A DNA stretch of 64,000 bases from Synechococcus sp. CB0101 (GTDB lineage Bacteria > Cyanobacteriota > Cyanobacteriia > PCC-6307 > Cyanobiaceae): the NCBI RefSeq assembly GCF_000179235.2, contig NZ_CP039373.1:2015860-2079859 (forward strand), in the 5' to 3' direction. Of this stretch, positions 15,722 to 21,480 are shown in pieces. Under the pieces are notes generated by a model. It saw only the letters and a program-made list of their open reading frames with translations. It ran no database searches and was not told the DNA's origin. How positions within the stretch are numbered: position 1 is the stretch's first letter; each line of letters starts with the position of its first letter. Both the position numbers and the translations under genes were made by a program.

Positions 15722-16213
15722 ATGACCGTGACCCCCGTCGCCGACCCCTGCGTCGGCAATCTGGCCACTCCCGTCAACAGCAGCTACTTCAGCCGTGCCT
15801 TCCTGAACGCGCTGCCGGCCTACCGCCCTTCCCTCTCTCCCAACCGTCGTGGTTTGGAAGTGGGCATGGCCCATGGCTTCTTCCTCTACGGCCCCTTCGC
15901 CATCACCGGCCCGCTGCGCGCTACTGAGTACGCCAGCACCGCTGGTCTGCTGGCCGCTGTGGGTCTGGTGTCAATCCTCACGGTCTGCCTGTCGATCTAC
16001 GGCACCGCTGGCCGCGGCCCCAACGTGCAGCCCGCTGACGCCACCATCGACAACCCTCCCGCTGACCTGTTCACCAAGGCCGGCTGGGCTGAATTCGCCA
16101 GCGGCTTCTGGCTCGGCGGTTGCGGTGGCGCTGCCTTCGCCTGGTTCCTGGCCGGCACCAGCATCGTTGCCCCCCTGGTCAACATTGCCGGTGGTGTCTG
16201 GAGCGTGGGCTGA
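15722..16213 (+). CDS. psaL: Photosystem I reaction centre subunit XI (PsaL)
   Basis: A 163-residue thylakoid membrane protein forming the core of the photosystem I trimer contact. The conserved [16 protein letters not shown] segment (a chlorophyll-ligand region in the family) is followed by helices at [19 protein letters not shown] and [16 protein letters not shown], giving three membrane helices as expected. The N-terminal stretch [15 protein letters not shown] is typical. It is co-oriented with psaI and ends just before a strong hairpin terminator. Confidence 0.97.
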
Positions 16214-16236: not shown

Positions 16237-18423
16237 TCAAGCCCCGCTGCGGCGGGGCTTTTTTGTGGGTTTTTGAATGCCGTCTTGGCCACTGCCGATG
16301 CGGCCCAGCTCGGCCAAGAGAACGGGTAGATCCACCGTGAGCACGGCCAGCACCGGGTTGATCGGGAGCAGCAGATTCAACAGCACCACTGAGATGTGCG
16401 GCACGAGTACCAGGGCGAGGTTGCGGCGGTGGCGCTGGGCGGCGTCTAAGGCCAGCGTTTGACAGGCCACCAGGTTGCCGAGCGCTTCGGGCCGCACCAC
16501 CAAGTCAGCGTTTTCGCTGCTCAGGCCATGGTCTCGGCTGAGCAGTTCGATCGAGAGATCGGCCTGCGCCAGGGTGAGGCCATCGATGGCGCTGCAGCCG
16601 AGCATGGCGATGGGCTCGCCAGATGAGCGCCAGGCATCCAACAGGCGGCTTCGTTCCACATGATTGGTGGCGATCTGGATGGCGGCAGCGGGCCTGTGCA
16701 GCCGCCCAGCCAGCCGTTCCACCAGTTCGCTTTGGCTGTCGACCAGCAAATCCAACCGCCAGCCAGCACGTTGCAGCTCGCGTAGCCCCCGCACGAGCGC
16801 TCGCGAGAGTTGCAACTCGAAGCCCACGGCTCCCACCACCTGGCCTTGGCGCAAGAGGTAAACCAGGGTTTCCCCAGGGGGTGTGATCAGTTCCGCCGGG
16901 GTTGTCAATCCGAGTTGCTGCAGCATGGCCACTCCTCCCAGCTGATGCATCACGCCGTTGATGCGGCCCTGTTGGCCTTCGCTGCCCAGCGGTTGGATAC
17001 CCTCCACGACCGCTGGCAACAGATCTTCGGCTTCCAGGGCACTGCGCAGGGCATGGAGGCCATGGGGTTTCTGTTGGCAGCGAAATCCAGCCACGATCTG
17101 AATCAGCTCCTCACCGCTGATCAGAAAAGGCAAGGGATACAGACCGCCGAGGCGCCAGCTACTGGTGCTGCGCACTGTGGCCTCACTCACTATGAGCTGG
17201 CGGCAACGGGCGAGAGCATCGATGGCTTCTGGTCTTCGCAGCAGCACGCCCTGCCAGAGCAGATCCCGCTGGGCGTTGCCGTAGGTCAGGGAGGCTGTCA
17301 GCTGCCAGTCGCTGGCGGGATCGAACTGCATCAGGGCCCCAGCGCTGCCATGGGGCCCGATCGCCAGAAGGCCTGCGCCGGCCAGAAGCAGGTAGGGAAC
17401 CGAGCGCTGGTGCCATTGCTCCGCCCGCTGGAGCAGAGAGGGGCCCCCATGGGATGCGCCCTGCTGTTGGGCTGCGTTGAGGAGTCGTTGCAGGGTCCGC
17501 AGTTCCGGATCGAGCTGCGGACTGCGCACCAAGCGCACCTCCAGCGTGCCCTCGATCACGCTGGCGCCAAAGGGAAGTTGTTGAAAGGCCCGGGCGCTGA
17601 GCAGGCGCGGATCCCCATCGCGCCATCGGGTGCTCACCAGGGCCTGCCCAGCCACCACCAGGGCGTGGGCCGGTAGAGGATCGCCTGCTGTCAGCCGCAG
17701 GCGATCGCCAGCGTCAAGCAGGGCGAAGGGTTGGGGCTGCCAGCTCCCGTCGCCTTGCAGCACCTGAAAGCTCAGGTCGGTGAGCCGTTGCTGCAGCTGC
17801 TGATCAAAGGCATCGGCATAGCCGGGTGATGGTGTCCACGCTTTGAACACCTGGTTGGCGGTTTCCAGCGTCCACTCCAGTAGCACCGCAGCGGGGTTGC
17901 CTTGGGCCAACAGGCTTGAAAACCAAAACAGATCCAACCATCCAGTCGCCAACTGCCGCTGGGCGAGCTGTTGGAGGCAGCGGGCCGCTAGAGGCAGGTA
18001 GCAGAGGCTGACAAACAGCAGCAGGCCCGGCCAGGCCGGTAACTCCAGCAGCGCCACACTGGCCAACACACCGGAGGTGCCACCGAGCCGCCATAGGGCG
18101 GAGCTCGAGGCCCGTGGTGTGAGCTGCAGTGATGTTTGGTGTTCGTGCTGCAAGGCCAGATGCAGCAGGGCCTGTAGTTGTTTGCGGCGCAGCGGCCGGC
18201 GGCCGTTGTGCTCAATCACCAGGCATCCGGCCAGGGTGTTGATTCGGATCGCCTGGACCCAGGCCAAATGCAGGCTGGCGTTCAGCAACCGCTGCTGCAG
18301 CGCAGGGTTGTTCAGCAGCGCGTGGCCGGAGATCCGCAGCCGGCGAGGCAGCACTTGCCGGATCCTCCAGGGTTCGCCCTCCGGCACGAGATGGAGGAGG
18401 TCGCCGGCCTGCAACTCACGCAT
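16237..18423 (-). CDS. P-type ATPase homologue lacking catalytic motifs (pseudoenzyme)
   Basis: A 728-residue protein with the overall plan of a heavy-metal-type P-type ATPase: N-terminal ferredoxin-like region (about 20-95), membrane pair (118-146 and about 158-185), actuator-like domain (225-300), membrane pair (340-362), large cytoplasmic region (390-640) and terminal helices (670-705). Every catalytic motif is altered. At the DKTGT position it reads IVSEATVRS, so the phosphorylated Asp is Ser413. The actuator TGE region reads RDGD (268-271), the hinge GDGxND reads GCSAID (609-614), and the CPC position reads FDPASDW (367-373). The frame is uninterrupted over 2.2 kb, which argues for selection. 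ATP-driven transport is not expected; a structural or regulatory role is inference. Confidence 0.78.
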   Translation of the reverse strand: MRELQAGDLLHLVPEGEPWRIRQVLPRRLRISGHALLNNPALQQRLLNASLHLAWVQAIRINTLAGCLVIEHNGRRPLRRKQLQALLHLALQHEHQTSLQLTPRASSSALWRLGGTSGVLASVALLELPAWPGLLLFVSLCYLPLAARCLQQLAQRQLATGWLDLFWFSSLLAQGNPAAVLLEWTLETANQVFKAWTPSPGYADAFDQQLQQRLTDLSFQVLQGDGSWQPQPFALLDAGDRLRLTAGDPLPAHALVVAGQALVSTRWRDGDPRLLSARAFQQLPFGASVIEGTLEVRLVRSPQLDPELRTLQRLLNAAQQQGASHGGPSLLQRAEQWHQRSVPYLLLAGAGLLAIGPHGSAGALMQFDPASDWQLTASLTYGNAQRDLLWQGVLLRRPEAIDALARCRQLIVSEATVRSTSSWRLGGLYPLPFLISGEELIQIVAGFRCQQKPHGLHALRSALEAEDLLPAVVEGIQPLGSEGQQGRINGVMHQLGGVAMLQQLGLTTPAELITPPGETLVYLLRQGQVVGAVGFELQLSRALVRGLRELQRAGWRLDLLVDSQSELVERLAGRLHRPAAAIQIATNHVERSRLLDAWRSSGEPIAMLGCSAIDGLTLAQADLSIELLSRDHGLSSENADLVVRPEALGNLVACQTLALDAAQRHRRNLALVLVPHISVVLLNLLLPINPVLAVLTVDLPVLLAELGRIGSGQDGIQKPTKKPRRSGA
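16240..16264 (+). terminator. Rho-independent terminator of psaI-psaL
   Basis: A perfect 8-bp stem AGCCCCGC (16240-16247) with GCGGGGCT (16252-16259) around the loop TGCG, followed by a run of T to 16264. It lies 27 bases after the psaL stop. The same bases encode the last residues of the convergent P-type-ATPase-like gene. Confidence 0.93.
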
Positions 18424-18775: not shown

Positions 18776-20186
18776 GGCAGAGCTCCAGGCCGTTGCTCCA
18801 GCGGCGGCAGCTCCAGCCGGCAGCGCGGGCCTCGCGCAAGAGCTCCTGTTGGCGCGCCCGTGAGGAGCCCCAGCCGGGATCTTTAGGATTGAGCAGCAGC
18901 GCATCGAGCTGCTCGAGACGCGTGGTGTCGCGGCGGGTGCGGGGAAAACTCACCTGTTGGCGTTGGCTTAGCTGGGGCACCAGGTAGCTGGTGGTGCTCA
19001 GCCGCGCTTCGGCAGGCACTGCTGCGATGGCTTCGCGGATGGCCGGCAGCTGATTCACCCGTTCGAGATAGGGGCCGGTGAAGAACCAGGGTTTTGCCAG
19101 GGCTGCCCAACACACCACACTCCAGCCGAAGCGCCTCCAGGGCACGGGTTGCCGCGGCTGTAGAGCCAGGCCATCCATCGCCGCTACCACCACCATCACG
19201 GCGATCGGCAGGCTGTAGTGATGCACCAGGGTGCGCTGCGGTGCTTCTTCTGAGAGCACGTTCACCAGCACCAGTGGGAAAGCCCCGGCCAACACCGGCA
19301 GCGATACGCGCCGCCAGAAGGGTGCCACCGCCACGCTGATCAGCAGCAGATACACCAGGCCGCCGCTCCAATCCACGTGCTGAAGCAGCAGATCGGGCCG
19401 GGTGAGCATGTTGAGCAACACCTGATCGAGGCTGTCGCCCAGATAAGAGAACAGCGCCCCGGCCGCCTTGGGCCCGGCATCGCTTCCCTTGAGCAACGGA
19501 TACAGCCAGCGGTTGAGCAGCGCGAGCCAGCCCAGGGCTAAGCCGATGGCGGCCCCGGCCCAGACCCAACGCCGCCGCAACGCCTGTTCAAGGCCCAGAC
19601 CCGCCACCACCAGCACCAGGCCATCGCGGCAGCCGAGCAGCAGCAGCAACAGGCCAAACCAGAGCCAGGGGCGTTGGGCGCGGCTGGCCCAGTAACACCC
19701 GGCCAGGGCCGGCATCACCCACACCTCGGGGTGGAAATCAAACAGGTTGGCGTTGAACACAACCGGCTGCAGCCACCACAGGCCGCAGCCCAGCCAGCAG
19801 AGCTTGGGGCTGAGCCCCGCCTGGCGGCCCACCCACCAGAGCGGCAGGGCCGTGAAGCTCAAGGCCGCGGCCTGGCTGGCCAGCAGCCACTGCACGCTGC
19901 CCAGAAGCCGGTAGGGCACTGCGGCCCAGTAGAGGGCCCAGGCGCCATGGTCCGCCAGGATGTGAACCTCCTCCATCGAGGAGATCGGCGGCAGGCCGCG
20001 GCTCACCAGCCAAATCCACTGGTCGAACAGGCCGAGGTCGTAGGCGTTGCTCTGCAGCAGGGCGTGGCGTGCGGCGGCGCAGCCCCAGAGCACAAGAAAG
20101 ATCGCCACGCAGCCCAAGCTGAGGTTGCGAGGGGGCAGGCTTCGGCTCTCCGGCATGGGCAGGTGCTCAGGCGCCGAGCTTCCCAT
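18747..20186 (-). CDS. DUF2079-family membrane protein
   Basis: A 479-residue multi-helix membrane protein. The conserved DUF2079 start is seen as NAYDLGLFDQWIWL after the first helix, then DHGAWALYWAAVPYRL and FNANLFDFHPEVW. About ten helices follow, with a soluble C-terminal segment (PAEARLSTTSYLVPQLSQR). The family resembles GT-C-type polyprenyl-linked glycosyltransferases, but activity is not established. Start ATG 20186; an internal ATG at 20156 is equally possible. It is divergent from the GtrA-ChbG gene and resembles a second DUF2079 gene at 23.2-24.8 kb. It belongs to the local surface-glycosylation block. Confidence 0.82.
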   Translation of the reverse strand: MGSSAPEHLPMPESRSLPPRNLSLGCVAIFLVLWGCAAARHALLQSNAYDLGLFDQWIWLVSRGLPPISSMEEVHILADHGAWALYWAAVPYRLLGSVQWLLASQAAALSFTALPLWWVGRQAGLSPKLCWLGCGLWWLQPVVFNANLFDFHPEVWVMPALAGCYWASRAQRPWLWFGLLLLLLGCRDGLVLVVAGLGLEQALRRRWVWAGAAIGLALGWLALLNRWLYPLLKGSDAGPKAAGALFSYLGDSLDQVLLNMLTRPDLLLQHVDWSGGLVYLLLISVAVAPFWRRVSLPVLAGAFPLVLVNVLSEEAPQRTLVHHYSLPIAVMVVVAAMDGLALQPRQPVPWRRFGWSVVCWAALAKPWFFTGPYLERVNQLPAIREAIAAVPAEARLSTTSYLVPQLSQRQQVSFPRTRRDTTRLEQLDALLLNPKDPGWGSSRARQQELLREARAAGWSCRRWSNGLELCQNDAPEGRS

Positions 20187-20220
20187 AGGCTGCCGGCCCT
20201 GGCCATGGGCAGCGGTGGGC

Positions 20221-21480
20221 GTGAGGGCAAAGCTGGCGGAGCTGATGCGCTATGGCGGTGTGGGCGTGCTCGCGGCCGCGATCCATGCGGCGGTGTTGCT
20301 GCTGGGCGAGTGGCTGCAAGGCCCGCTGCCGCTGGTGAACCTGTTGGGGTTTCTGCTGGCTTCGCTGTGGGGATATCTGGCCCACGCGCTGTTCACCTTT
20401 CGCGAGCACACCGGCGGGGCGCCCTTCCCGCGGCGTTGGCTGCTGATCCAAACCAGCCTCAATGTGCTGGTGAGCTTGCTGCTGCCGGGCTGGCTCGGGA
20501 TCTGGGCCCGCCGCATGGCGGGCACGCTGGTGATGGTGTTCACCCCCACGGCGATTAATTACGTGCTCTGGTCGCTCGCGGCGCGCCATAGCCGCAGCCG
20601 CCGGCAACGGGCCCTCGCTCCGGAGCCTGTGCGCTTCCATGCCGACGATCTCGGCCTGCACCCGGCTGTGAACACCACCATCCTCCGGCTGCATGGTGCT
20701 GGAGCCCTGGATTCCGCCAGCGTGCTGGTGACGGCCCCGGCGGCTGAAGCGGCCGCTCAGGCCTGTGCCTCACGGCCGGGGCTGGAGCTAGTGCTGCATC
20801 TGTGCCTGAGCGAAGGACTCCCGGCCGCTGATCCGGCACAGATCCCCGATCTCCTCGATCAGCAAGGACGCTTGGCGATGGGCTTCGGGCGCTTGCTCCT
20901 GGCCGGATGCTGGCCGCCGCGGTCGCCGCAGCGGCGGCGGCTGGAGCGTCAGCTGGCCCTGGAGATACGGGCGCAGTTGCAGCGGTTCCAAGTGTTGTTC
21001 CCGGGCCGGCCGCTGCAGCTGGATGGGCATCAGCATGTGCACCTGCTGCCGGTGGTGTGGCAGCAGCTCTGGCGGCTCCCGGAGGCGCTCCAGCCGGTGT
21101 GGGTGCGCAGCCTGCGCGAGCCCTGGCCATGGCGCGGCATTCCGCTGCTGCGCTGGCGGCAGGCGTTGCGGGAGTTGGGCCCGATCAAGTGGGCGCTTTT
21201 GCGCATCCTCAACGTTGGTCGGGCCGCGGAGCTGGCGCGCCGAGGTGTTGCCACCAACCGCGGCTTCTGCGGGGTGTTGTTCACGGGCCAGATCGATGGA
21301 TCGGTGATCCGGGCCGCCCAACGGCTGTTGCAGCCAACGGGCGGCCTGGTGCTCGCCCATCCGGCTGAGGGCTGGGCCGCCGGGCCAGACGCGCTGCAGG
21401 CCTATCCCCTCTCGCGCCGCTTTTATGCCTCGCCCTGGCGATCGCTGGAAGCCGAGGCGCTGATGCGCCGCACCAGGTAA
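20221..21480 (+). CDS. GtrA membrane domain fused to ChbG/YdjC-type deacetylase
   Basis: A 419-residue two-domain protein. Residues 1-120 form a GtrA-like unit with four short membrane helices (MRYGGVGVLAAAIHAAVLLL, LLGFLLASLWGYLAHALFTF and two more). GtrA proteins act with GtrB enzymes in moving polyprenyl-phosphate sugars across the membrane. Residues 135-410 form a ChbG/YdjC carbohydrate deacetylase with metal-binding ADD at 141-143 in RFHADDLGLHPAVN and DGHQHVH at 268-274. The frame is open from 20047, but GTG 20221 starts right before the GtrA helices and clears the divergent gene. The 3' end overlaps the convergent GT2 gene by 58 bases. The fusion suggests deacetylation of a lipid-linked N-acetyl sugar coupled to translocation (inference). 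Confidence 0.85.
   Translation: MRAKLAELMRYGGVGVLAAAIHAAVLLLGEWLQGPLPLVNLLGFLLASLWGYLAHALFTFREHTGGAPFPRRWLLIQTSLNVLVSLLLPGWLGIWARRMAGTLVMVFTPTAINYVLWSLAARHSRSRRQRALAPEPVRFHADDLGLHPAVNTTILRLHGAGALDSASVLVTAPAAEAAAQACASRPGLELVLHLCLSEGLPAADPAQIPDLLDQQGRLAMGFGRLLLAGCWPPRSPQRRRLERQLALEIRAQLQRFQVLFPGRPLQLDGHQHVHLLPVVWQQLWRLPEALQPVWVRSLREPWPWRGIPLLRWRQALRELGPIKWALLRILNVGRAAELARRGVATNRGFCGVLFTGQIDGSVIRAAQRLLQPTGGLVLAHPAEGWAAGPDALQAYPLSRRFYASPWRSLEAEALMRRTR

Follow-up and report, generated by a model that had tools for sequence, protein, structure and literature searches.

We show herein that a homologue of the P1B-type ATPases, encoded in the window (the whole stretch of 64,000 nucleotides of Synechococcus sp. 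CB0101 DNA that was analysed), lacks the phosphorylated aspartate of these pumps and is maintained by purifying selection. This protein and its orthologues (family A) co-occur in the sampled genomes with one intact P1B-ATPase (pump I), and share a gene run with it in two genomes. Because A occurs with I, and in those two genomes in one run of genes, we lean towards the view, at a probability of roughly 0.6, that A, itself catalytically dead, serves pump I as a partner subunit or as a regulator; both the contact and the regulatory effect are inferred. Such a partnership, if true, would alter the picture of how P-type pumps can be assembled and controlled.

Among kinases and other enzymes, pseudoenzymes are known that regulate their active relatives. 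To our knowledge, no P-type ATPase with a conserved dead twin has been described. No pseudo-P-type ATPase was found in the open-access literature searched, from which most subscription papers are missing, and the question is not settled by that search. The relevant sections of a review of P-type ATPases (PMC10654040) likewise contain no inactive, pseudo- or degenerate member, which says little.

Results

Gene and domain layout

The gene and its features are listed in Table 1. An earlier note, made from the sequence alone, had described an uninterrupted P-type ATPase-like frame of 728 codons, and this description held. The protein belongs to the P-type ATPase superfamily by descent, with homology that extends along most of its length and is beyond chance. 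It matches the NCBIfam model TIGR01525 at 2.8e-15 (56.2 bits, below the curated cut-off of 346.25), against which pump I of the same genome scores 474.6 bits. The best match of solved structure is the copper ATPase LpCopA (3rfu), at 5.1e-09 when the protein is compared alone and 5.2e-25 when the family profile is used, and a profile-profile comparison (hhalign) of family A with the intact family spans 669 columns with an E value of 2.3e-41.

Table 1. Positions in the window of the pseudo-P1B-ATPase gene, its domains and motifs, and the adjoining gene
Feature	Position	Strand	Remarks
psaL, convergent (tail to tail) neighbour	15722..16213	plus	G346 homologue is photosystem I subunit XI
Pseudo-P1B-ATPase gene (family A)	16237..18423	minus	ATG start; 728 aa / 728 codons; no internal stop
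N-terminal HMA_2-like domain, residues 1-100	18124..18423	minus	Conserved Arg28, Arg30, Arg60, Asn62; no CxxC
A-domain-like (E1-E2_ATPase) region, residues 218-321	17461..17772	minus	Pfam PF00122 2.3e-06, just below cut-off
RDGD for TGE loop, residues 268-271	17611..17622	minus	TGE to DGD at 269-271; D269 and G270 in 13/13 A rows
QFDPASDW at M4 ion-site position, residues 366-373	17305..17328	minus	DPA aligned to CPC of LpCopA
IVSEATVRS for VFDKTGTLT, residues 411-419	17167..17193	minus	Ser413 at the phosphorylated Asp position
KP near HP (N-domain nucleotide) site, residues 452-453	17065..17070	minus	Alignment ambiguous by one residue
GCSAID for GDGxND, residues 609-614	16582..16599	minus	D614 kept
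C-terminal hydrophobic pair (M5/M6-like), residues 668-710	16294..16422	minus	Alignment to intact family; two hydropathy peaks

A match to PF00122 (E1-E2_ATPase) at E<=0.01 is present in all 13 members of family A. The N-terminal domain is less certain: the window protein matches the Pfam HMA_2 domain (PF19991) at 0.0037 (17.7 bits, below the 30-bit gathering score), and 8/13 members match it at E<=0.01. Arg28, Arg30 and Asn62 of this domain are conserved in 50/50 proteins across A, B (a second dead family, described below) and I, and Arg60 in 49/50. CxxC is absent from the first 110 residues of the window protein and occurs in only 1 of the 13 A rows (G232), within an N-terminal extension. 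A model of the domain was of low confidence (pLDDT 52.6); a Foldseek search with this weak model returned 613 matches at E<=10, with HMA-domain proteins on top (best E 0.089) and none at E<=0.001, and lends only weak support to an HMA fold. The full-length AlphaFold2 model, made from 4 sequences, was too poor for a whole-protein fold comparison (pLDDT 33, pTM 0.24). Whether the protein is a metal-binding or a regulatory scaffold, both of which had been proposed earlier, is not decided by an HMA-like domain that lacks CxxC and carries conserved Arg residues.

Catalytic motifs

Motifs were mapped by alignment to LpCopA and to 17 intact relatives, and were counted in 13 rows of A, 20 of B and 17 of I. 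The B rows include two of the four divergent genes that B has in genus g5, in addition to 18 others, and the I rows represent 17 of the 24 I genomes. The phosphorylated Asp is present in 17/17 I rows. At the same position A has Ser (8) or Thr (5) and never Asp, and B has Ser (16) or Thr (4), so that Ser or Thr stands at the phosphorylation site in 33/33 dead proteins aligned. The TGE position reads DGD (9) or DGR (4) across the A rows. Within GDGxND the last Asp (D614) is kept in 13/13 A rows and the first in 0/13. D622 is also kept in 13/13, while the TGD Asp and the His of the HP column are gone from every A row. The M4 pattern is QFDPxxDW in 13/13, with no Cys, and both P369 (CPx site) and P453 (near the HP site) are invariant in the family. 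Taken as criteria of a functional P1B-ATPase, the Asp of DKTGT, TGE, GDGxND and CPx are all unmet in family A.

These results bear on what the earlier note had said of the motifs. Its replacement of the phosphorylated Asp by Ser413, and of the TGE loop and GDGxND, held in the alignment. Its wider claim that every catalytic motif had been lost held only in part, with D614 and D622 kept and Pro retained at the CPx site and near HP. The replacement of HP by KPHG held for the region only, since the alignment shifts by one between methods: Pro453 pairs with His in the alignment to intact relatives, and with Pro in that to LpCopA.

Family B is less uniform than A, with the first Asp of GDG present in 6/20 rows and the Glu of TGE in 1/20. 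Its M4 pattern is [Q/R]FxPxxxW in 18/18 rows of the B alignment; the two divergent B proteins keep FxP and not the Trp. The intact pump I is also without CPC and has FDLGTG at M4 instead.

It is established that a protein without the Asp, without TGE and without most residues of the nucleotide site cannot run the known P-type cycle. The loss of motifs in A is shown at the sequence level; from established P-type chemistry we infer that formation of an aspartyl-phosphate by A is impossible, and that use of ATP is probably impossible as well.

Conservation and selection

Family A comprises 13 rows: besides the window protein there are 12 orthologues, which are 29-90% identical to it and come from four genera. 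Twelve of the rows represent the 12 A genomes of the census described below; L007 comes from outside the census, and the L008 row is identical to G541. All 13 members have an open frame and none has DKTGT. The NG86 dN/dS ratio was 0.05-0.24 in eight pairs, dS being saturated in a ninth, and ranged by domain from 0.11 to 0.28 (0.14 in the P/N region) in one pair, the window genome against L007. By comparison, the ratio was 0.10-0.13 for pump I and 0.14-0.20 for family B (three pairs each), and 0-0.03 for psaL (two pairs). With open frames and ratios of 0.05-0.24, the gene is therefore kept by selection and not decaying, and this purifying selection is looser than that on psaL. The earlier note had proposed a conserved pseudo-ATPase in place of a decaying gene, with a comparison of orthologues as the check; the proposal held.

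Distribution

A census was taken in one draw of 261 Cyanobiaceae genomes, in which only 3 or 4 candidates per genome were scored for A, B and I, so that misses are possible. Pump I was found in 24 genomes, B in 22 and A in 12 (four genera). There was no case of A without I, of B without I, or of I without either A or B; neither A nor B was found in the 237 sampled genomes that lack I. Two I genomes (G105 and G080) have A only, the other 22 have B, and the 12/24 without A all have B. At the sequence level, DKTGT is absent from the A and B proteins of all 12 A and all 22 B genomes. Fisher's test gave p values of 1.7e-14 for A with I and 5.3e-30 for B with I, uncorrected for phylogeny. Within the genus of the window genome (18 genomes), A occurs in 4 of the 6 I genomes and in 0 of the 12 others (p 0.005). 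Since the A genomes are confined to four genera, the co-occurrence rests on few independent events. A and I also diverge in parallel (r 0.89 over 11 genomes, shared phylogeny not removed). The co-occurrence with one intact pump, which lay beyond the reach of the earlier note, is the most telling fact about family A.

Across the phylum, the A profile found a match at E<=1e-25 in 36/292 genomes. No member of the dead family was seen outside Cyanobiaceae among the 28 phylum-wide matches inspected, all of which (28/28) keep DKTGT.

The second dead family, B

Near 100 kb of the single contig of the own genome, a dead protein of family B adjoins pump I, in which DKTGT, TGE and GDGIND are all present. 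The A profile matches that of B at 1.8e-62 over 691 columns, compared with the 669 columns given above for I. When 69 proteins were placed in a tree, the 13 of A and the 20 of B each formed one group, and the two together (SH-aLRT 100) lay opposite all 36 DKTGT-bearing proteins. The tree was built by a quick method with a midpoint root, and the program issued a long-branch warning; the B alignment excludes a truncated duplicate (L005), a fragment (L077:3-1247) and the B genes of G118, G137, G541 and G542. The simplest inference from this tree is a single loss of catalysis in the common ancestor of A and B.

More dead B-type ATPases lie outside the I cluster, at L050:7569-12231, L047:7032-9452 and L057:6968-9250, two of them in tandem in G150. 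Each has on the same stretch, about 5 kb away, a gene read as LysR-like, a label with no family search behind it. Separately, a P1B-ATPase of G342 and G476 (L079:1429-3630 and L081:1423-3597) has DKTGT, with SGE for TGE and GEGIND for GDGIND. Both genomes also carry a calcyanin-like protein (see below), and their ATPase is a possible half-way case.

Gene neighbourhoods

In 17 of the 24 I genomes a DUF5132-like gene, I, a gene for a small HMA-like transmembrane protein and B follow one another on one strand. The same order, with A in the place of B, is found in G105 and G080, while in the other five the I stretches were cut or outside the DNA compared. A lies inside the I cluster in G181 and G193 as well, beside a DUF5132-like gene and a carbonic anhydrase gene. 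In G047/G127, by contrast, it is on a different contig from I, and in the own genus it is found at a distance from the I cluster.

In the own genome, genes close to I and B code for two DUF1345 proteins, an ArsA_HSP20 protein (1.5e-11), a DUF454-like protein (2.9e-06, below cut-off) and a protein read as helix-turn-helix without a Pfam match; also there are a carbonic anhydrase (Pro_CA 1.6e-31), another DUF5132-like protein and a glycine-zipper protein, all three counted to the I/B cluster. The DUF5132 label is weak for both own-genome proteins (21.5 and 14.7 bits, below the Pfam cut-off of 25); a relative beside an I-like pump in G422 scores 69.7 bits, above it. The term HMA-like, as applied to the small transmembrane proteins, is a reading of their sequence and has no Pfam match behind it. 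At L039:9296-9652, as before I in other clusters, the small DUF5132-like protein is encoded directly ahead of the intact pump, and its tail reads as Ala/Glu-rich. No mention of DUF5132 was found in the open-access literature searched.

The window gene converges with psaL, an adjacency that the earlier note had thought perhaps due to chance. It does look incidental: within the own-genus clade psaL adjoins A at all 5 distinct loci, while at the 8 other A loci none was seen, several of these being represented by no more than 0-2 kb of flanking DNA on at least one side. A functional link between A and psaL was considered and rejected as genus-level synteny, the adjacency being seen only in that clade. 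Elsewhere in the window (20047-21480, plus strand), a frame reads, from its translation only, as a GtrA-like membrane domain fused to a YdjC/ChbG-like deacetylase domain.

The calcyanin-like protein

Calcyanin consists of an N-terminal domain and three glycine-zipper repeats, and the CoBaHMA domain described with it bears conserved basic residues on an HMA fold. A neighbour whose layout may be similar is encoded in the own I/B cluster (L039:11613-12554, 313 aa), with three glycine-zipper repeats seen by eye in the alignment. At its N-terminus it can be aligned to the HMA_2 domain of a protein from G346, although no Pfam family matches the neighbour itself. Its profile gave a match at E<=0.001 in 17/244 genomes, the own genome included, and six of these, in three other genera, reach 1e-8 or better. 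The G346 and G426 proteins match the profile over nearly their full length, and that of G346 has the HMA_2 domain at 2.3e-10. Glycine-rich sequence inflates similarity of this kind. Over 155 residues there is no difference between the PsaL of G346 and the one in PDB 6lu1, which we take to be from Thermosynechococcus, and T. elongatus is named among carbonate formers in a review (PMC12836880).

In the census, a calcyanin-like protein was found in 15/261 genomes, namely 14 of the 24 I genomes and one draft genome without I (G533). It occurs in 10/12 A genomes versus 5/249 others. It was not found in two of the A genomes (G212 and G232, both of which also have B and I), and in all it was not seen in 10/24 I genomes. 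The association with A is strong but not strict in the sampled genomes, and a link to carbonate is thus not obligatory. Directly after the calcyanin-like gene of G354 and G473 (L139:360-1535 and L140:336-1535) is a gene whose product reads as a Ca2+/H+ antiporter, by reading only.

Discussion

What is shown here is that A co-occurs with I in the sampled genomes, shares a gene run with it in two, and is under purifying selection; what A does is inferred. In the partner reading, A would keep the overall P1B sequence layout without the catalytic cycle, and would dock to pump I through its HMA_2-like basic domain and its membrane segments, for which no interaction data exist. It may also dock to the DUF5132-like and HMA-like small membrane proteins that the cluster encodes. 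So docked, A would shape the assembly, stability or substrate hand-over of the pump, and the DUF5132-like protein encoded before I may, by analogy, work like the PacL scaffolds, although it is not a member of the PacL family. Against this reading, the A gene is separated from the I cluster in the own genus and in G047/G127, 12/24 I genomes manage without A (all of them with B), and interaction, expression and activity are all without data.

The ion carried by pump I can only be inferred. A Ca2+-like ion is suggested because the M4 residue is Asp, and not Cys, in both A and I, and because calcyanin-like and carbonic anhydrase genes are neighbours; we regard a hard divalent cation such as Ca2+ as possible but clearly less likely than not. 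Calcyanin (ccyA) is associated with intracellular carbonates (PMC11773610, PMC12836880), and Cyanobacteriota have reportedly yielded no functional counterpart to the Achromatium calcium ATPase (PMC11773610). A role of I in providing Ca2+ for intracellular carbonate is inferred less firmly than the partner role of A. A bolder reading, which is merely possible, is that of a hetero-oligomeric P-type pump, in which a working I is obligately accompanied by one or two dead twins (A, B), organized by DUF5132-like proteins, and feeds cations to calcyanin-guided intracellular carbonate. If true, this would be the first P-type ATPase with pseudo-ATPase subunits, and the first dedicated pump for an intracellular carbonate biomineral in cyanobacteria.

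Among the alternatives, the one that survives best is that A is an independent membrane scaffold or sensor (of anionic lipid or a cation), which serves the same physiology as I without contact and senses through its basic HMA-like domain and the QFDPxxDW site. This remains possible, and is favored by the fact that in the own genus and in G047/G127 A has moved out of the I cluster, by the conserved Arg28, Arg30 and Arg60, and by the presence of the M4 motif in 13/13 members. However, the location of A after I in one gene run in two genomes, and its occurrence in 0/237 sampled genomes without I, fit the partner reading better.

A second alternative is that A retains some transport of its own, for example by letting ions pass passively at the Asp site of M4, or through an unusual Ser/Thr chemistry. 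In its favor, Ser or Thr is found at the phosphorylation site of all dead proteins, and D614 and D622 are kept throughout A. We consider it unlikely: TGE, the GDG Asp, the TGD Asp and the HP-column His are gone in 13/13 A rows, and because of this the P-type cycle cannot run by known chemistry, while the Ser/Thr may merely cap the strand. Finally, a decaying pseudogene, or a recent duplicate that has yet to acquire stop codons, would account for the loss of catalytic motifs in the window copy, but is all but excluded, and was rejected, on the open, DKTGT-less orthologues of four genera (down to 29% identity), the low dN/dS, and the single group that A forms in the tree.

Comparison with known systems

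The partner reading, like the carbonate link, can be set against several described systems. The P1B-type heavy-metal ATPases (TIGR01525; LpCopA, 3rfu) have the same HMA-like domain, A domain, M4, P/N domain and C-terminal helices in the same order as A, and differ from it in possessing the catalytic motifs and CPx. With the HMA_2 (PF19991) proteins A shares conserved basic residues, which would fit the CoBaHMA domain as well if the weakly modelled HMA fold is right, and HMA_2 also occurs in the calcyanin-like protein of G346, whereas the window protein scores below the Pfam cut-off. In the PacL/CtpC platforms of mycobacteria, a P1B pump is encoded with a small membrane protein that has a transmembrane segment and an acidic/Ala-rich tail (PMC9374683). 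The likeness lies in the DUF5132-like protein that stands before I, a layout judged by reading; DUF5132 is not DUF1490, and no dead ATPase appears in the relevant sections of that paper (PMC9374683). The A, B and I ATPases are not themselves calcyanins; the likeness to the calcyanin system comes from the cluster protein, which has three glycine-zipper repeats and aligns with the HMA_2-bearing glycine-zipper protein of G346. This association provides a testable candidate cation pump for carbonate biomineralization in cyanobacteria.
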